Assembly (NCBI GenBank): GCA_003221695.1
Contig: QHSX01000044.1
Coordinates: forward strand, 124,001-188,000
Length of the DNA: 64,000 nucleotides
DNA from: Candidatus Rokuibacteriota bacterium
GTDB lineage: Bacteria; Methylomirabilota; Methylomirabilia; Rokubacteriales; CSP1-6
Direction: 5' to 3'
Numbering within the stretch: position 1 is the stretch's first letter; each line of letters opens with the position of its first letter. The notes under the pieces were generated by a model. That model did no database searches. It was given only the letters and a program-made list of their open reading frames with translations, and had not been told where the DNA came from. Positions 4,567-21,073 of the stretch are shown piece by piece. Made by a program: the position numbers and the translations under genes.

Positions 4567-6053
4567 GGCGCTACCACCGGCAGTCGCACTTGCACGCGCG
4601 TGCCGTGGCCGAGCCGGCTCTGGAGGGTGAGCTCGCCCCCGTGCAGCTGGACGACCGAGCGCGCGATCGACATGCCGAGCCCGGTCCCGTCGGGCTTGGT
4701 CGTGTAGAAGAGGTCGAACGCCCGCGAGATCGTCTCATCGCTCATGCCCGCCCCGGTGTCCTCGATCGTCACGGTGATCGTGCCGGAGTCGGTCGCGTAC
4801 GAGGTCATCAGGCCGAGCCGGCCCGAGCCGCCGAGGGCTTCGAACGCGTTGACGATGAGGTTGAGGAAGGCCTTTCGGAGCTCGCGCGCATCGAGCATGA
4901 GCGCCTCCGGGCACGTCGGATCCCACCCGCGGACCACCTCGAGCGCCGTCGTGTCGAAGCGCGCGGCGGCGAGCTCGAGGCACTCGTCGAGGAGCGTGTG
5001 GACGTTCGTCGGCGCGCGGTGGAGCTCGGGTGGGCGCCCGAACGCGGTGATCTCGGCGACCACGTCGGCGAGGTGCTCCACGCCGGCCGCGATCTTGCTC
5101 GCGAGCTCCTGACCCTCCGTGTCGCCGGCGCGGCTGAGCCGCTGCTCGAGGTGGCGGGCGTAGAGGCGCAGGCCCGCGAGCGGATTCTTGATCTCGTGGG
5201 CAACCTGCGTCGCCATCCGGCCGAGCGCCGCGAGCGCGCCGCTCCGGAGGCGCTCCAGCTCGTGCGTGTTGCGGACCGCGATCGCCGCCTGCGACGAGAA
5301 GAGCGCCAGCAGCTCGAGGTCGTCCTCGGTGGGCTCGACCCGCGTGGGCGTCTCGATGACGAGCGCTCCGGTCGGCCCGCGCTGGACGACGAGCGGCGCC
5401 GCCACGATCGTGCCCACCTCGCCGTCGCCGCCCGCCGAGCTGGTGATCGGCACGCCCTTTTCCATCGCGGTGGCCGCGGCGGCCTCGAGCGCCTCCCACG
5501 ACGGCGGGGGCGACCCGGCGCTCGCCATCGGCACGAGGCGGCCGCGCTCGAGCTGGAAGACGACGCAGCGCTCCGCTTCGGTCGCCTCGACCGTCGCCTG
5601 GGCGACCGAGTCGAGCACGCGCTCCATGATCCCGGACGAGGCGAGCGTCTGACCGACGGTCAGGAGGCGTTCGCGGTCGCGCGCCCACCGTCGCGTGGTG
5701 AGCGCGCGCTCGATCTTCGTGCGGAGCTCGTCGCGCACGAACGGCTTCGTCAGATAGTCGAAGGCGCCGCGCCGAACCGCCTGCACGGCGTTGTCGATCG
5801 TGCCGTGGGCGGTCATGATGAGCACCGGCAGCCGGCGCTGCTGCGCGTGGAGCGCCTCCATGAGCTGGACGCCGTCCATCGGTCCCATGCGCAGATCGAT
5901 GAGCGCGAGGTCGAATCGCTGCGCCGCCGCGACGTCGAGCGCGCGGCGCGGCTCACCCACGGGGGTGACGTCGAAGCCCATCGCCCCGAGGCGCATGGCG
6001 AGCACCTCGAGGATCGCCGCGTCGTCGTCGACGACCAGAACTTTCCGGGTCAT
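4563..6053 (-). CDS. Receiver-GAF-histidine kinase hybrid
   Basis: Soluble 496-residue signalling protein with an N-terminal receiver (D53 in LIDLRMG, K103), a GAF-like sensor segment (about 135-265), a dimerisation and phosphotransfer domain with H286 in VAHEIKNPLAG, and a HATPase domain with N-box and DTGAGM. No membrane segment is seen. Having the receiver first suggests that a partner kinase controls this kinase, which then phosphorylates the co-translated sigma-54 regulator. The ATG at 6053 abuts the intercistronic repeat array and lacks a clear Shine-Dalgarno. Confidence 0.9.
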   Translation of the reverse strand: MTRKVLVVDDDAAILEVLAMRLGAMGFDVTPVGEPRRALDVAAAQRFDLALIDLRMGPMDGVQLMEALHAQQRRLPVLIMTAHGTIDNAVQAVRRGAFDYLTKPFVRDELRTKIERALTTRRWARDRERLLTVGQTLASSGIMERVLDSVAQATVEATEAERCVVFQLERGRLVPMASAGSPPPSWEALEAAAATAMEKGVPITSSAGGDGEVGTIVAAPLVVQRGPTGALVIETPTRVEPTEDDLELLALFSSQAAIAVRNTHELERLRSGALAALGRMATQVAHEIKNPLAGLRLYARHLEQRLSRAGDTEGQELASKIAAGVEHLADVVAEITAFGRPPELHRAPTNVHTLLDECLELAAARFDTTALEVVRGWDPTCPEALMLDARELRKAFLNLIVNAFEALGGSGRLGLMTSYATDSGTITVTIEDTGAGMSDETISRAFDLFYTTKPDGTGLGMSIARSVVQLHGGELTLQSRLGHGTRVQVRLPVVAP

Positions 6054-6342
6054 TGGAGCGAGGGCCCCGCGACCGGCGCACTCCGTGGGTGGCGTGCCGT
6101 GGGTACGGCGCGGCTCCGTTCGACCAATCCCCCTCGCACCAAGGGCCCCGCGACCGGCGCACTCCGTGGGTGGCGTGCCGTGGGTACGGCGCGGCTCCGT
6201 TCGACCAATCCCCCTCGCACCAAGGGCCCCGCGACCGGCGCACTCCGTGGGAGTGCGAAGCCGCAGCGCGTCCGACGCGCGAGGCGAGTCTGCGTGAGTC
6301 GGCGTGCCGTGGGTACGGCGCGGCTCCGTCCACGCGGGGTCC
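6054..6342 (-). repeat. Intercistronic tandem repeat, locus A (3 units)
   Basis: Three direct copies with an 81 bp period start at 6061, 6142 and 6223 on the plus strand. The third carries an insertion of about 70 bp that repeats part of the unit. Read on the minus strand, the array starts at the lipoprotein stop codon and ends at the hybrid-kinase ATG. The core includes CCACCCACGGAGTG, a GGTCGCGGGGCC block and the perfect hairpin GCCGTACCCACGGC. It is related to the arrays at 15052, 33713 and 41108. Confidence 0.85.
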
Positions 6343-6345
6343 GCG

Positions 6346-6681
6346 TCATTTCTTCTCCCCGCGGCGCTCGATGCGGAGGTCGAGCTCCTTCAGCCGCTCG
6401 AGGTCCGCCTCACGCTTGGCGAGGTCCTCTCGGAGCCGCGCGAGTTCCCGCTGGAGCGCGAGGATCGACGCCACCGTGTTCCGGCTCATCCGGACGCGCG
6501 TGTCGGAGCCGTGTTTTGCGAGGTAGCCGTCGTACGCCGCCACGGCCGCCGCGTAGTCGCCGTGCTCGACGAGGCGGTCGGCCTTCACGAGCTCCGGCGA
6601 ATACTCCCACGGCCACGGACGCAGGGACGCGCAGCCGCCGACGAGGATCACCAGAAGGAGGCCGGCGACCAGCCGGCTCAT
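6346..6681 (-). CDS. Small QseG/YfhG-like lipoprotein
   Basis: A 111-residue protein with a lipoprotein signal peptide (MSRLVAGLLLVILVGGC, lipid-modified Cys near 17), a short helical-repeat-like region (about 30-60) and a charged coiled-coil tail (75-110, rich in RELARLREDLAKREADLERL). The ATG overlaps the stop of the membrane kinase by four bases. In E. coli the lipoprotein QseG (YfhG) sits between glrK and glrR and modulates the kinase. This protein is about half as long, so the link rests on position and topology rather than visible sequence identity. Confidence 0.7.
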   Translation of the reverse strand: MSRLVAGLLLVILVGGCASLRPWPWEYSPELVKADRLVEHGDYAAAVAAYDGYLAKHGSDTRVRMSRNTVASILALQRELARLREDLAKREADLERLKELDLRIERRGEKK

Positions 6682-14125: not shown

Positions 14126-15061
14126 ATGCGCCTGACCGCGATCGCGGGCGGCACGGGCGCGGCGAAGCTCCTGCGCGGCCTCGCGGCCGCGCGCCCCCGG
14201 GATACGCTCACCGTGATCGGCAACACCGGTGACGACGCCGAGATCTGGGGCCTCCACGTCTCCCCCGACCTCGACACCGTGATGTACGCGCTCGCGGGCC
14301 GGCTGGACACGGCGCGCGGCTGGGGCCTGACGGGAGAGACGTTCCGCTGCCTCGAGGCGATGGGCGACCTCGGCGCCCAGACGTGGTTCAACCTGGGCGA
14401 CCGCGACCTCGCCACGCATCTCCACCGGACGCGCGCGCTCCGCGAGGGCTTGCCGCTCTCGGCGGTAATGGCCGAGCTGTGCGGTCGTCTGGGCGTGGCG
14501 GCGCGCGTCCTCCCCATGAGCGACGAGCCCGTGCGCACGCGGGTCCGGACGCCGGACGGCTGGCTCTCGTTCCAGGAGTACTTCGTGCGCGAGAAGGCCC
14601 AGGTCCAGGTCCTCGACGTCGAGTACGCGGGCGCCTCCCAGGCCCGGCCGGCACCGGGCGTTCTCGAGGCGATCTGCGAGGCCGAGGTGGTCGTCGTCTG
14701 CCCATCGAACCCGGTGACGTCCGTCGGTCCGGTCCTCGCCGTCCCCGGCATCGCGGACGCGCTCACCGGCGCGCGCGCCCGCGTCGTCGCGGTGAGCCCG
14801 ATCGTGGGCGGCGCCGCGGTGAGCGGGCCGGCCGGTGCGCTCATGCGGGCCCGTGGCCTGTCCGTCTCCGCCGTCGGGGTCGCGGCGGCATACGCGCCTT
14901 GGCTCGGAACGCTCGTCATCGATCGGAGCGACACGGGGCGCGTCGCCGAGCTGGCGCGCCTGGGCGTCGAGGCCGTGCTGGCCGACATCGTCATGACCGA
15001 CCGCGATCGGGAGATCGCCCTGGCGCGCGTCGTTCTCGGTTCGCGGAGCCCTGTGAAATGA
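14126..15061 (+). CDS. cofD: 2-phospho-L-lactate (or PEP) transferase CofD
   Basis: A 311-residue enzyme that transfers the phospholactyl or phosphoenolpyruvyl group from its guanosine-diphospho form to Fo, giving F420-0. Family motifs are IAGGTGAAKLLRGL at the N-terminus, NTGDDAEIWGLHVSPDLDT, the TWFNLGDRDLATH segment and VVVCPSNPVTSVGP. The stop codon falls in the first unit of a tandem repeat, so its last codons are repeat-derived. cofC follows after the array. Confidence 0.95.
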   Translation: MRLTAIAGGTGAAKLLRGLAAARPRDTLTVIGNTGDDAEIWGLHVSPDLDTVMYALAGRLDTARGWGLTGETFRCLEAMGDLGAQTWFNLGDRDLATHLHRTRALREGLPLSAVMAELCGRLGVAARVLPMSDEPVRTRVRTPDGWLSFQEYFVREKAQVQVLDVEYAGASQARPAPGVLEAICEAEVVVVCPSNPVTSVGPVLAVPGIADALTGARARVVAVSPIVGGAAVSGPAGALMRARGLSVSAVGVAAAYAPWLGTLVIDRSDTGRVAELARLGVEAVLADIVMTDRDREIALARVVLGSRSPVK

Positions 15062-15317
15062 AACGCGTGTTGCAGAACGGTGCCGGGTCGCACCTGGCTC
15101 AGGCCACCCACGAAGTGTCCCCGGCCTCGCGGCCCCCGTGTGAAATGAAACGCGTGTTGCAGAACGGTGCCGGGTCGCACCTGGCTCAGGCCACCCACGG
15201 AGTGTCCCCGGCCTCGCGGCCCCCGTGTGAAATGAAACGCGTGTTGCAGAACGGTGCCGGGTCGCACCTGGCTCAGGCCACCCACGGAGTGTCCCCGGCC
15301 TCGCGGCCCCCGTTACG
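15052..15317 (+). repeat. Intercistronic tandem repeat, locus B (3 units)
   Basis: Three nearly identical 87 bp direct repeats begin at 15052, 15139 and 15226. Each starts TGTGAAATGAAACGCG and ends near GGCCTCGCGGCCCCCG. The first unit supplies the cofD stop codon (AAATGA) and the last ends directly at the cofC ATG, with no Shine-Dalgarno. Possible hairpins in each unit are GGTGC-loop-GCACC and GGCC-TCGC-GGCC. The near identity of the copies suggests recent expansion. Related arrays lie at 6054, 33713 and 41108. Confidence 0.92.
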
Positions 15318-15998
15318 ATGATCATTTGCGCCGTGCCGGCCAAGGACCTCGTCAACGCCAAGCAGCGCCTCGTCCCGGTGCTCGGCCCCAGGGAGCGCTG
15401 CGAGCTCGCCCGGGCGATGCTGAGCGACGTCTTCGCCGCCCTCCGCGCCGCGCGCCTCGACGGCGTCTGGGTCGTGACGCGCGATCCCGAGGTCGTCGGG
15501 CTCGCCGCCGCGTTCGGTGTCGAGCCGCTCGCCTCGCTCGGCGAGGCGGCGAACTCGAGTCACACCGCGGCGGTCGCCTTCGCCCAGGCCGAGGCCGCGC
15601 GACGGGGCGCACGCCTCTTCCTCACCGTGCCCGGCGACGTCCCGTGCCTCACCAGCGGCGAGATTCAGGCACTCGCCGCCGGGGCGCGGCAGGGCGCGCC
15701 CGCGTTCGCCCCGTCGCGCTCGGGGTTCGGCACGAACGGCGTGGCGCTCACGCCGCCCGACGCGATGCCGCTCAAGTTCGGCGAGCCCTCGTTTCAGAAC
15801 CACCTCGCGGTGGCGCGCGCCTGCGGCCTCGAGCCGCGAGTCCTGATGCTCGCCGGCCTCGCCCTCGACGTGGACGAGCCGGAAGATCTCGTGACGCTCG
15901 CAGCCGAGGGCGGGATCACCGAGAGCGCGCGCCTCGCCCGCGCGTGGGTGGATGCTGGAGCGGGGGCCACGAGACCGGTGCCGCCGAGAGTGGCCTGA
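15318..15998 (+). CDS. cofC: 2-phospho-L-lactate (or PEP) guanylyltransferase CofC
   Basis: A 226-residue nucleotidyltransferase that activates phospholactate or phosphoenolpyruvate with GTP for CofD. It starts IICAVPAKDLVNAKQRL, where the lysine-rich loop binds the nucleotide, and continues with TVPGDVPCL (metal-binding acidic motif), SGFGTNGVAL and GLALDVDEPEDL, all standard for CofC. The ATG directly abuts the repeat array. Whether it prefers lactyl, glyceryl or enolpyruvyl substrates cannot be read from sequence alone. Confidence 0.94.
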   Translation: MIICAVPAKDLVNAKQRLVPVLGPRERCELARAMLSDVFAALRAARLDGVWVVTRDPEVVGLAAAFGVEPLASLGEAANSSHTAAVAFAQAEAARRGARLFLTVPGDVPCLTSGEIQALAAGARQGAPAFAPSRSGFGTNGVALTPPDAMPLKFGEPSFQNHLAVARACGLEPRVLMLAGLALDVDEPEDLVTLAAEGGITESARLARAWVDAGAGATRPVPPRVA

Positions 15999-16003
15999 CA
16001 CCG

Positions 16004-16771
16004 ATGCGACCCGGCTCCGGACCGCCGCGCTACGAGGTGATCGGGATCGCGGGCCTCCCCGAGGTGCGACCGGGCGCCGACCTCGCGCGCCTCATCGTCG
16101 AGACGGCAGCGCGCCAGTCCACGCCGCTCATCGGAGGCGATCTCCTCGTCGTCAGCCAGAAGGTCGTCTCCAAGATGGAGGACCGCATCGTCCGGCTCGC
16201 CGACGTCACGCCCTCGCCCGTCGCCCTGGCCATGGGGGCGGGGCTCGGGCGCGATCCGCGCCTCGTGGAGGTCATCCTCCGCGAGTCGCGCCGCATCGTC
16301 CGCATGGACCAGGGCATTCTCATCACCGAAACGCACCACGGCTGGGTCTGTGCGAACGCCGGCGTCGATCAGTCCAACATGGACGTCGACTCCGTTGCGC
16401 TCCTCCCCGAGGACCCTGACGGCTCGGCGCGCGCCCTGCGCGATCGGATCCGCACCCTCGCGGGCGTCGACGTCTTCGTGATCATCGCCGACACCTTCGG
16501 GCGTCCCTGGCGCGAGGGGCTCACGAATGTCGCGATCGGGCTCGCCGGGCTGGCGCCGCTCCGAAGCTACCTGGGCGAACGCGACCCGGCGGGCCGGCCG
16601 CTCCAGGCGACGATCCTCGCCGTCGCGGACGAGCTCGCCGCCGCAGCGGAGCCCGTCATGGGCAAGCTCGACCGTATCCCCGCGGCGATCGTGCGGGGCG
16701 CGTCGCTCACCTCGAGCGAGGAGGGCTCGAAGCCGCTCTTGCGCGACCCCGCGCGGGACCTCTTCAGGTGA
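16004..16771 (+). CDS. cofE: F420-0:gamma-glutamyl ligase CofE
   Basis: A 255-residue GTP-dependent ligase that adds glutamates to F420-0. Conserved segments include GDLLVVSQKVVSKMED, GILITETHHGWVCANAGVD, DTFGRPWREGLTNVAIG and the ending VRGASLTSSEEGS. It is the stand-alone archaeal-type CofE; the FMN-reductase domain fused in actinobacterial FbiB is absent. The ATG at 16004 follows cofC by five bases, and the next gene starts inside its stop as GTGA. Confidence 0.94.
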   Translation: MRPGSGPPRYEVIGIAGLPEVRPGADLARLIVETAARQSTPLIGGDLLVVSQKVVSKMEDRIVRLADVTPSPVALAMGAGLGRDPRLVEVILRESRRIVRMDQGILITETHHGWVCANAGVDQSNMDVDSVALLPEDPDGSARALRDRIRTLAGVDVFVIIADTFGRPWREGLTNVAIGLAGLAPLRSYLGERDPAGRPLQATILAVADELAAAAEPVMGKLDRIPAAIVRGASLTSSEEGSKPLLRDPARDLFR

Positions 16772-17412
16772 ACATCGCGATCCTCGGTGGCACGGGCAAG
16801 GAGGGCGTGGGGCTCGCCGGACGCTGGGCGCTCGCGGGTCACTCGATCATCATCGGCTCCCGCGACCGCGACCGCGCGAAGGCGAAGGCGGCGGAACTAC
16901 GCGAGATCACCCGGAAGATGCCGATCATGGGCGAGGCGAATGTGGAGGCGGCGAAGCTCGGCGCCGTCGTCGTCCTCGCCCTCCCGGCCTCAGGGCTCGC
17001 GACCACGCTCCCCGAGGTGAGCGCCGCCTGCCGTGACAAGGTCGTGATCAGCACGGTCGTGGCGCTGGCGTTCGGCGGCCCCCGCCTCTACACGCCGCCT
17101 CCGGAGGGCTCGTCCGCCGAGGAGGCTCAAGCGCTTCTTCCGGGTGCGAAGGTCGTCGCCGCGTTCCACCACATCGCCGCCCACGAGCTCGCCGACGCCG
17201 ACCACCCGATCGAGTGCGACCTCCTCCTCTGCGGCGCCGACCAGGCGGCGAAGGAGACGGTCGCTGAACTCGGGCGCTCGATGGGGCTCCGGCCCGTCGA
17301 CGTCGGGCCGCTCTCGAACGCGGGGCTGCTGGAAGGGATCACGGCGGTCCTCGCGACGATCAACCGCCGCTACAAGGTCAAGAGCTCGGGCCTCAAGATC
17401 ACGGGCCTCTGA
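16768..17412 (+). CDS. npdG: NADPH-dependent F420 reductase, NpdG/Fno-like
   Basis: A 214-residue Rossmann protein expected to move hydride between NADPH and F420. It begins MNIAILGGTGKEGVGLAGRW with the dinucleotide-binding loop, has IIIGSRDRDRAKAKA (SR after the second strand, favouring NADP), KVVAAFHHIAAHEL and GPLSNAGLLEGITAVL, the usual NpdG/Fno core. The GTG start overlaps the cofE stop. Ending the biosynthetic genes with the reductase lets the cell make and charge the cofactor from one transcript. Confidence 0.9.
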   Translation: MNIAILGGTGKEGVGLAGRWALAGHSIIIGSRDRDRAKAKAAELREITRKMPIMGEANVEAAKLGAVVVLALPASGLATTLPEVSAACRDKVVISTVVALAFGGPRLYTPPPEGSSAEEAQALLPGAKVVAAFHHIAAHELADADHPIECDLLLCGADQAAKETVAELGRSMGLRPVDVGPLSNAGLLEGITAVLATINRRYKVKSSGLKITGL

Positions 17413-18971: not shown

Positions 18972-19670
18972 CTACGACCCCGGGCCGTTGGTGAGGGCCG
19001 CGACGGTCCGGGCGACGTCCGAGAAGTCGCGGAACAGGAGGTCCGGCGCGCATGCGGCGAGCTCGTCCGCCGGGTACTGCCCCGTCGCCACGGCGACTGC
19101 GACGGCGCCCGAGGCGCGGGCGCAGTCCACGTCGTGGGGTGTGTCGCCGATGATCGTCACGCGTTCGTCATCGATATCGCGGCCGACCAGACGCGCCGCC
19201 CGCTCGCGCGCGATCGGGGGCAGGCGCCGGCGGTCGATGTGGTCCGAGCCGTAGGCGCCGACGCGAAAGTGCGGCAGGAGCCGCGTCGGGCGGAGCTTGA
19301 GCCGCGCACCCGCCTCGATGTTGCCGGTCAGGAGGCCCACGATCGCGTCGGGATGGGCGCTGAGCGCCCCGACGAGGTCGCGGATTCCGGGCATGAGCTG
19401 GACCGCGCTCCCGTCGCCCAGGAGCGTTTCGAGCTCGCGGACGTACGCCTCGAAGCAGTCGCGGAGGCGCGCCTCGATCGCCTCGCCCGGGATCCCGGCG
19501 GCAGTGAGGACGTCCCAGACGATGCGCGGGTCGGTCTTGCCGCGAAGGTCGTAGGCGTCAAGTGCGCCGGCGGTCCCGTAGGTCCCCTCGAGTGCCTGCT
19601 TGAAGGCGGCGCGTCCCACGCCGCGCGCGGTCAGCAGCGTGCCGTCGATGTCGAACAGGAAGAGCCGCAC
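18972..19670 (-). CDS. HAD-superfamily phosphatase (phosphoglycolate phosphatase-like)
   Basis: A 232-residue HAD hydrolase. Motif I is LFDIDGTLL (nucleophile Asp and acid/base Asp), motif II lies in VGLLTGN, motif III K/R is in the region before motif IV, and motif IV reads IIGDTPHDVDCA. An alpha-helical cap lies between motifs I and II, as in Gph/PGMB types. Substrates may be phosphoglycolate or other small phospho-compounds. The GTG start is one base past the stop of the cysteine-desulfurase homologue. Confidence 0.9.
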   Translation of the reverse strand: MRLFLFDIDGTLLTARGVGRAAFKQALEGTYGTAGALDAYDLRGKTDPRIVWDVLTAAGIPGEAIEARLRDCFEAYVRELETLLGDGSAVQLMPGIRDLVGALSAHPDAIVGLLTGNIEAGARLKLRPTRLLPHFRVGAYGSDHIDRRRLPPIARERAARLVGRDIDDERVTIIGDTPHDVDCARASGAVAVAVATGQYPADELAACAPDLLFRDFSDVARTVAALTNGPGS

Positions 19671-19671
19671 G

Positions 19672-20877
19672 TCAGCGCGGCGCGAGGCGGCGCAGGCGCG
19701 CGACCACGGCGGGCAGTGTCTCGACCGCGATGTCGATCTCGCTGGCGGTCGTCCAGCGTCCGAGCGTGAAGCAGAGGGAGCCCTCGAGCGCCTCGCGGTC
19801 GCAGCCGATCGCGCGGAGCACGTGGGAGGGCTCGCCCGTGACCGCGTTGCACGCCGAGCCGGACGAGGCGGCGATGCCTCTGAGATCGAGCTCGAGCAGG
19901 ACGCCGTCCGCCTTCACGCCGGGCACCACGAAGGACGCGTGGTGCGGCAGGCGGCCCTCGCCGCGCGCGCCCGTGAGCCGCGTCTCCGGGAGCCGCTCGA
20001 GCACCCGGGCGAGCAGCCGATCGCGGAGCCCACGAAGCCGGGCGACCTCCGCCGGCCCCTCGAGCCGGGCGAGATCCGCGGCGACGCCCAGCCCCACGAT
20101 CGCCGGCAGGTTCTCGGTCCCCGCGCGGTAGCCGCCCTCCTGCCCGCCGCCGAGGATCTGCGGGGCGAGCTTGACCTCGGCCCGCACCCACAGGGCGCCG
20201 GCGCCGGGCGGGCCGTACAGGTCGTTCGACGAGAGGGAGAGCAAGTCCACGTACGCCTCGTCCACCGTGAACGGCACGCGCCCCGCCGCGCCCACCCCAT
20301 CGACGTGGAAGGGCACGCCCCGCGCGCGCGCGAGTCTTCCGATCGCGGCGATCGGCTCGAGGGTGCCGATCTCACCGTTCGCCGCCATGATCGAGACCAG
20401 CGCCGTGTCATCGCGGATCCACCCCGCCACCGCGTCGGGATCCGCGCGCCCCTCCGCGTCCACCGGGACGTAGCTCACCGCAAAGCCCTGCTTCTCGAGG
20501 TCGCGGCACGCGTTGAGCACCGAGACGTGCTCGACGGCTGAGGTGACGATGTGGCGCCCCCGCGCCCGCGCCGCGACGCCTTTGATCGCGAGGTTGTTGG
20601 CCTCGGTGGCGCTCGCGGTGAAGATCACGCCCGACGGCGCACCGCCGATGAGGCGTGCCACCTTCGCCCGCGCGCCGTCGAGCGACGCGCGCGCCTCGAG
20701 CCCGAGGGAATGGGGCGCGCCGGGGTTGCCAACGCCACCCTCGAGGAACGGTCGCATGACCGCGACGACGCGAGGGTCGACGGGGGAGAAGCCCGCGTAG
20801 TCCAAGTAGACGCGCGGAACCGCCGCGTCAGGGCCACTACCGGGTCTTGCGGACGAAGAAGCGGAAGACCGTGCCAT
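19672..20877 (-). CDS. Cysteine desulfurase homologue lacking the PLP lysine
   Basis: A 401-residue fold-type I protein of the IscS/NifS family. It keeps YLDYAGFSPVDP, TASATEANNLAIKG, SAVEHVSVLN (H117), the substrate-binding R251 in YRAGTEN and the sulfur-accepting Cys (C343 in SSGSACNAVTGEPS). The segment that should read SGHKIYGPKG reads SSNDLYGPPG, so D219 replaces the Schiff-base lysine. The Q that contacts PLP is G196 and the NNEIG motif is NGEIG. Canonical desulfurase activity is unlikely. It overlaps tusA by 41 bases; the N-terminus may be about 20 residues shorter. Confidence 0.9.
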   Translation of the reverse strand: MARSSASSSARPGSGPDAAVPRVYLDYAGFSPVDPRVVAVMRPFLEGGVGNPGAPHSLGLEARASLDGARAKVARLIGGAPSGVIFTASATEANNLAIKGVAARARGRHIVTSAVEHVSVLNACRDLEKQGFAVSYVPVDAEGRADPDAVAGWIRDDTALVSIMAANGEIGTLEPIAAIGRLARARGVPFHVDGVGAAGRVPFTVDEAYVDLLSLSSNDLYGPPGAGALWVRAEVKLAPQILGGGQEGGYRAGTENLPAIVGLGVAADLARLEGPAEVARLRGLRDRLLARVLERLPETRLTGARGEGRLPHHASFVVPGVKADGVLLELDLRGIAASSGSACNAVTGEPSHVLRAIGCDREALEGSLCFTLGRWTTASEIDIAVETLPAVVARLRRLAPR

Positions 20878-21073
20878 TCTTCTCGATCTCCAGGAGTTCG
20901 TGGCCCGCGCGGGCGGTCCAGCTTTTCATGTCTGCCTCGGAGGCCGGGTCGTCGGACGTCATCTCGAGGACCTGACCGGGCGCCAGGTGCTTCATGGCCT
21001 CCCGTGTTTTGAGGATCGGCATGGGACAGAAGAGTCCCACGCAATCGAGCTTTGTGTCCGCACCGTGGGGCAT
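20837..21073 (-). CDS. tusA: TusA-family sulfur carrier
   Basis: A 78-residue sulfurtransferase-like protein. KLDCVGLFCPMPILKTREAM contains the CPMP motif whose Cys carries persulfide sulfur, and the fold ends in FRFFVRKTR. The ATG at 21073 follows AAGGGG at a proper distance. Coupling to a desulfurase homologue normally means sulfur relay from cysteine; here the partner lacks its PLP lysine, so the sulfur may come from elsewhere. The upstream region is AT-rich and shared with the divergent GGDEF gene. Confidence 0.92.
   Translation of the reverse strand: MPHGADTKLDCVGLFCPMPILKTREAMKHLAPGQVLEMTSDDPASEADMKSWTARAGHELLEIEKNGTVFRFFVRKTR

Follow-up and report, generated by a model that had tools for sequence, protein, structure and literature searches.

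What a protein built like the cysteine desulfurase IscS could do without its PLP lysine, and in such close company with the sulfur carrier TusA, is the question raised by one operon in the window, the 64,000-nucleotide stretch of Candidatus Rokuibacteriota DNA that we analyzed. The first gene of the operon is tusA, located at 20837-21073 on the minus strand (-), which encodes 78 amino acids and matches Pfam TusA with 86 bits (E 1.6e-24). The second is the iscS-like gene at 19672-20877 (-), a 401 aa ORF that matches Pfam Aminotran_5 with 216 bits and whose ATG start at 20877 places its 5′ end within the 3′ end of tusA, the two genes overlapping by 41 bp at 20837-20877 (-). One base past the iscS-like stop is the third gene, encoding a HAD-family hydrolase (Pfam HAD; 18972-19670 (-)), followed in the window by a gene for a CopD-like membrane protein, while genes for a GGDEF protein and an HD-domain response regulator lie upstream of tusA in the divergent orientation. 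No Rfam elements were found near the tusA/iscS-like operon. The window TusA scored 50 bits against E. coli TusA (1dcj/3lvj) and carries the motif LDCVGLFCPMP, containing the active-site Cys16 of the CPxP type and an extra Cys11. Elsewhere in the window, a row of F420 genes at 14126-17412 includes cofD-like, cofC-like and cofE-like genes (by eye) and an F420-dependent NADP reductase-like gene (by Pfam), and the cofD-like gene is followed by a tandem repeat of three 87-bp copies (15041-15313) that is present nowhere else in the host genome.

The active site of the IscS-like protein was examined by mapping residue numbers through alignment onto the E. coli IscS (EcIscS) sequence from PDB. The original prediction had read the lysine motif as SSNDLYGPPG, the PLP-contacting Gln as Gly and NNEIG as NGEIG, and the alignment agreed on each. 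Asp219 (codon GAC, 20221-20223 (-)) occupies the place of the Schiff-base lysine K206, preceded by Asn218 at the position of H205, Gly196 (20290-20292 (-)) that of Gln183, which contacts PLP O3′, and Gly168 (20374-20376 (-)) that of Asn155, the counterpart of the substrate carboxylate ligand Asn150 of SspA. It had further been claimed that the active Cys, the substrate Arg and the overall fold are all kept. This holds for the catalytic persulfide cysteine of the mobile loop (EcIscS Cys328), found at Cys343 (19849-19851 (-)), and for the fold, predicted as a full-length class V aminotransferase fold with a pLDDT of 90.6 and a TM of about 0.88-0.91 to IscS structures, but not for the arginine. 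The position of the substrate carboxylate arginine, Arg354 in EcIscS and R340 in SspA, is taken by Cys369 (19771-19773 (-)), and the surviving Arg374 aligns with R359 rather than R354. Of the sequences compared, all 62 canonical ones have Arg in the Arg354 column, and the lysine-less proteins sampled from the two clades never do. Other pocket residues are retained, including His117 (20527-20529 (-); EcIscS His104, which stacks on PLP) and Asp193 (20299-20301 (-); EcIscS Asp180, the pyridine N ligand), both present in 26/26 members of the clade of Asp-for-lysine proteins described below (the Asp clade). The phosphate anchors Thr91, Ser216 and Thr254 (EcIscS T76, S203 and T243) are likewise kept, also across the Asp clade, and together with His117 and Asp193 this set of residues would also suit a bound cofactor. 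Two of the E. coli TusA contacts, D52 and R55, have counterparts here (Asp67 and Arg70), and the other two, W45 and E49, are replaced by Leu60 and Ala64.

Mutational work on EcIscS found that changes at His104, Asp180, Gln183, Lys206 or Cys328 each abolish activity, with H104Q alone or K206A alone being sufficient, whereas the conservative R354K change does not abolish activity and PLP binding persists in K206A (PMC9978102). In SspA, Arg340 and Asn150 hold the substrate carboxyl, and IscS is described as sharing both (PMC7188994); taken by alignment, these would be R354 and N155 of EcIscS, both absent in the window protein. Since the lysine, the Gln contact and both carboxylate ligands are lost, the protein should neither activate PLP through a Schiff base nor hold cysteine, and we consider the case strong that it is no cysteine desulfurase. 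Loss of activity is inferred here by analogy to the A. fulgidus IscS (AfIscS) and to the EcIscS mutants.

The closest solved structures to the predicted fold include human NFS1 and AfIscS (TM 0.89-0.91, with 0.91 for AfIscS 4eb5). AfIscS, which the original prediction had already picked as the comparator, is also the best PDB sequence match at 357 bits (318 for the next protein) and falls in the same clade with a support of 99/94. The window protein does not reach the threshold of any NCBIfam desulfurase model, its best score being 405 bits vs a cut-off of 531, with 253 bits vs 304 for NF002806. In 38/38 distinct Rokubacteria genomes, at identities down to ~60%, the lysine is replaced by Asp (as 'ND') and the active Cys is present, in keeping with the earlier view of a selected variant rather than decay. 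Decay, frameshift, chance and sequencing error were ruled out, as the gene is intact in every relative compared, and a lysine supplied by a shifted motif was ruled out by an alignment that is ungapped in every relative. Cys369 is Cys in 37 of the 38 genomes and Val in the remaining one. The proposed pairing with TusA proved real and conserved: tusA is directly upstream of the iscS-like gene in 38/38 genomes, the 41-bp overlap is identical in most loci, the exceptions still adjoin tusA directly, and the TusA motif C-x-G-L-F/Y-C-P-x-P is maintained. Most Rokubacteria loci have the HAD hydrolase downstream too, and our neighbourhood comparison found neither iscU nor dsrE in the flanks of any Rokubacteria tusA/iscS-like locus. 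An orthologue is present in 55/60 genomes searched from the host order and in 0/35 searched from other families of the host class.

The host genome (4.6 Mb, estimated completeness of 100%) was also searched for a canonical desulfurase, a check suggested along with the original prediction, and one was found at C35:91850 with the motif SSHKIYGPKG and an IscU-like neighbour; the window protein is 47% identical to this paralogue. A SufS-type protein gene adjoins another IscU-like gene, and the three IscU-like genes of the genome are all away from the window locus, beside other desulfurase-like genes. Among the loci read, a lysine-bearing desulfurase was also seen in 11/12 other genomes with a lysine-less IscS, and none was among the matches read from the twelfth. 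With canonical desulfurases alongside, the module would therefore add to cysteine-derived sulfur and not replace it. The host also has an ISC operon consisting of an IscS gene (C35:97780-99045 (-)), an IscR-type gene, iscU, an IscA-like gene and hscB, and in this IscS K206 is changed to Leu and H104 to Gln. Leu or Met at K206 and Gln at H104 were found in the ISC-operon IscS of 30/30 Rokubacteria genomes; these proteins keep Gln183, Arg354 and the active Cys. The host operon is without tusA and its IscS groups among canonical IscS in the tree, and this lysine loss is therefore independent. NCBIfam would still name the host protein IscS (606 bits vs a cut-off of 548). On host contig C14 (locus positions 4783-6411 (-)), a metallo-beta-lactamase/rhodanese/TusA fusion adjoins a YeeE-type transporter gene, and beside this pair is a flavocytochrome c sulfide dehydrogenase-like gene; it is possible that these genes represent sulfur inputs.

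The original prediction was incomplete in that it saw a single-gene oddity, whereas lysine loss turned out to be widespread. In a wider sample of loci found by similarity in GTDB genomes, the lysine is replaced by Asp in Rokubacteria, archaea and Desulfobacterales, by Gln in Nitrospirota, Aminicenantes and Chloroflexi, by Tyr or Leu in Aquificota, by Ser or Ala in Desulfobacterales and bins labelled Deltaproteobacteria, and by other residues elsewhere, and the active Cys is present in all of the lysine-less proteins. The Asp proteins, including AfIscS, form one clade in a 62-row tree (99/94, as above) and have a single origin on a 174-row tree, with the T76 and S203 equivalents nearly invariant. 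A second, mixed clade that spans many bacterial phyla is separate from the Asp clade (support 100/99 in the 62-row tree) and has lost Gln183, Arg354 and usually the lysine. Its phosphate anchors drift, but 41/41 members retain His104, Asp180 and Cys328. A new base at the lysine position was considered as a general rule and fails in the mixed clade, where Q, L, Y, S, A, R, M, V, G, N and T all occur at this site. Nor do the trees support one origin for all of the losses, since they place the Asp clade, the mixed clade and the ISC-operon IscS of Rokubacteria apart. Judging from these sequences, lysine loss is widespread and arose at least three times, with tusA involved in two separate clades. 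Six proteins of the tusA-linked clade from the Nitrospirota phylum sample keep the lysine but carry Met for Gln183, Ala for Thr243 and, in most cases, Leu for Arg354, and could possibly be intermediates or cases of secondary retention. In 15 Aquificota loci, the Leu/Tyr NifS-like genes are directly downstream of one conserved gene.

Linkage was scored in the first sample as a same-strand tusA no more than 3 kb away, which held for 43/54 lysine-less loci vs 2/21 lysine-bearing loci. A second sample, drawn from the phyla of a Methanothrix-type and a Nitrospira genome, gave 28/31 vs 6/29, the 29 lysine-bearing loci including seven Gln183-less sequences. Fisher tests of tusA against lysine loss gave p of about 3e-8 and 5e-8, values that ignore relatedness and come down to only ~3 independent contrasts, meaning that the association rests on few independent events. 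Linkage to tusA does appear in two clades that the tree separates. All of the exceptions, i.e. the lysine-bearing loci with tusA (all six in the second sample), have lost Gln183, and none of the canonical loci with both Lys206 and Gln183 have an adjacent tusA (0/22 and 0/22, together 0/44). Lysine loss was dropped as the best marker of tusA linkage in favour of Gln183 loss, because some tusA-linked proteins of Nitrospirota and Hydrothermarchaeota keep the lysine but are without Gln183. In relatives, the genes mostly run tusA-(dsrE)-iscS-iscU, and some bacteria add a gene for an IscR-type regulator. In close relatives of AfIscS (66-68% identical), the gap to the upstream tusA is 5-8 bp and that to the downstream iscU 10-29 bp, and iscU is directly downstream in most Asp-clade members outside of Rokubacteria. 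At two Hydrothermarchaeota loci, tusA sits between two IscS-like genes, one with Arg in place of the lysine and one that keeps it, and two iscU-like genes follow.

Read directly from the sequences, the losses, their conservation, the operon and the clade are best accommodated by a desulfurase-dead IscS-like protein that serves as a persulfide relay or docking partner of TusA, a reading to which we give a probability of roughly 55%. The IscS-like protein would keep its fold and mobile-loop Cys and work without cysteine desulfuration. TusA may be loaded with sulfane sulfur by a canonical desulfurase or, through rhodanese-type enzymes, from sulfide, thiosulfate or polysulfide, and would then exchange a persulfide with Cys343, after which the IscS-like dimer would hand the persulfide to an acceptor. 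In relatives with an adjacent iscU the acceptor is probably IscU, and candidates in Rokubacteria would be the three IscU-like proteins with genes elsewhere in the genome and other targets of thiolation. As the Rokubacteria locus is without iscU and dsrE, acceptor and donor are guesses, and the direction of transfer is likewise something we infer, as is any role for Cys369, which sits in the former substrate pocket and might act as an additional relay thiol or a resolving thiol.

The strongest competitor, possible in our view but rather unlikely, is that the loop Cys carries no sulfur and instead ligates a nascent cluster on IscU, with TusA feeding IscU or being unrelated. AfIscS is in the same clade, its IscS-IscU complex (4eb5) is solved and is reported to have this role, and the iscU genes directly downstream in most members outside of Rokubacteria fit such a scaffold. 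However, tusA and not iscU is the constant partner in Rokubacteria, and the missing iscU weakens a scaffold at that locus. We consider it unlikely that the protein is instead a residual PLP or PMP enzyme in which His117, Asp193 and the phosphate anchors hold the cofactor without a covalent bond and Asp219 is the base for some other chemistry, whose substrate might be a persulfidated or thiolated molecule brought by TusA. The persistence of PLP in EcIscS K206A (PMC9978102) would allow for this, and Asp at 219 is fixed across a clade of archaea and bacteria in which the equivalents of His104, Asp180, T76 and S203 are nearly invariant, in contrast to the other tusA-linked clade with its freely varying lysine-site residue and drifting anchors. 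That same free variation argues that the pairing with TusA needs no base there, and the loss of Gln183 and both carboxylate ligands and the reported inactivity of AfIscS also speak against an enzyme. Less probable still is a regulatory decoy that controls sulfur flow to TusA-dependent paths by forming a heterodimer with canonical IscS or by sequestering TusA. A canonical paralogue does exist in the same genome, the IscS fold is kept, and in E. coli TusA competes with IscU for IscS (PMC11302665), but the protein is only 47% identical to the paralogue, a decoy would have no need of an invariant catalytic Cys, and the overlap with tusA, by which expression is probably coupled, points to a partner made in stoichiometric amounts. 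Finally, an ordinary desulfurase that uses another lysine or has a misaligned motif would agree with the whole-length homology to desulfurase models, but is very improbable given the ungapped motif in every relative, the four lost pocket ligands and scores below all NCBIfam desulfurase cut-offs.

Extending the relay reading beyond this locus is a more tentative step. We consider it possible, though less likely than not, that there is a widespread and repeatedly evolved class of desulfurase-dead IscS proteins driven by TusA rather than by cysteine, with Cys369 as a second relay thiol in Rokubacteria. Sulfane sulfur of inorganic origin would pass from TusA to the loop Cys of the dead IscS and on to IscU, or in Rokubacteria to another acceptor. 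If true, sulfur could enter Fe-S cluster assembly or thiolation without being drawn from cysteine. How organisms supply sulfur for Fe-S clusters when cysteine is not the source is still debated, mostly in terms of free sulfide, and these loci offer a concrete candidate route from TusA through a lysine-less IscS to IscU, in many phyla and with defined residues. Additionally, proteins annotated as cysteine desulfurases but without the catalytic lysine, such as the Aquificota NifS-like and Rokubacteria ISC-operon IscS proteins, mean that genome-based tallies of desulfurases may be inaccurate, as may reconstructions of how Fe-S systems first looked.

Parts of this picture are already known. An Asp-for-lysine IscS without desulfurase activity has been described in A. 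fulgidus, its Cys reportedly ligating the IscU cluster, and the essential lysine is likewise reported absent from M. acetivorans IscS1 (PMC7585200). No mention was found of the general tusA linkage, the loss of Arg354 or its change to Cys, the other lost ligands, the second clade or the Rokubacteria cases in the literature covered, from which key subscription papers are missing. A. fulgidus IscS 2 (4eb5, 4eb7, 4hvk; D199K variant 4r5f) is the nearest system, sharing with the window protein the SSND motif (Asp199 there), the catalytic Cys, the lost Gln183 and Arg354 equivalents and the clade at ~45% identity. It differs in having Leu at the Arg354 position where Rokubacteria have Cys, and its close relatives have both tusA and iscU where Rokubacteria have tusA without iscU. 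M. acetivorans IscS1 and MisS are also IscS-type proteins that form an IscS-IscU pair. MisS of the minimal MIS system (MisS-MisU) is described as a cysteine desulfurase, in papers that do not mention tusA (PMC12192291, PMC11559095), and unlike MIS the Rokubacteria pair is without MisU at the locus.

From the side of TusA, the pair resembles DsrE3A-TusA of Metallosphaera cuprina (PMC4175335) and YeeE-YeeD (PMC11073785), in which TusA-family proteins carry inorganic sulfane sulfur, though the abstracts describe both systems without an IscS-like partner. A further likeness to the TusA/DsrE relays is the dsrE found beside tusA in many related loci, a feature of the relatives rather than of Rokubacteria. 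The metallo-beta-lactamase/rhodanese/TusA fusion that the host encodes next to a YeeE-type transporter adds to the resemblance. The E. coli IscS-TusA complex (3lvj, 3lvk), with its two Cys ~4 Å apart (PMC2854127), shares the fold, the TusA partner and the active Cys on a mobile loop. E. coli IscS, however, is PLP-dependent and donates sulfur to TusA, whereas the window protein is predicted to be dead and sulfur may flow in the opposite direction.
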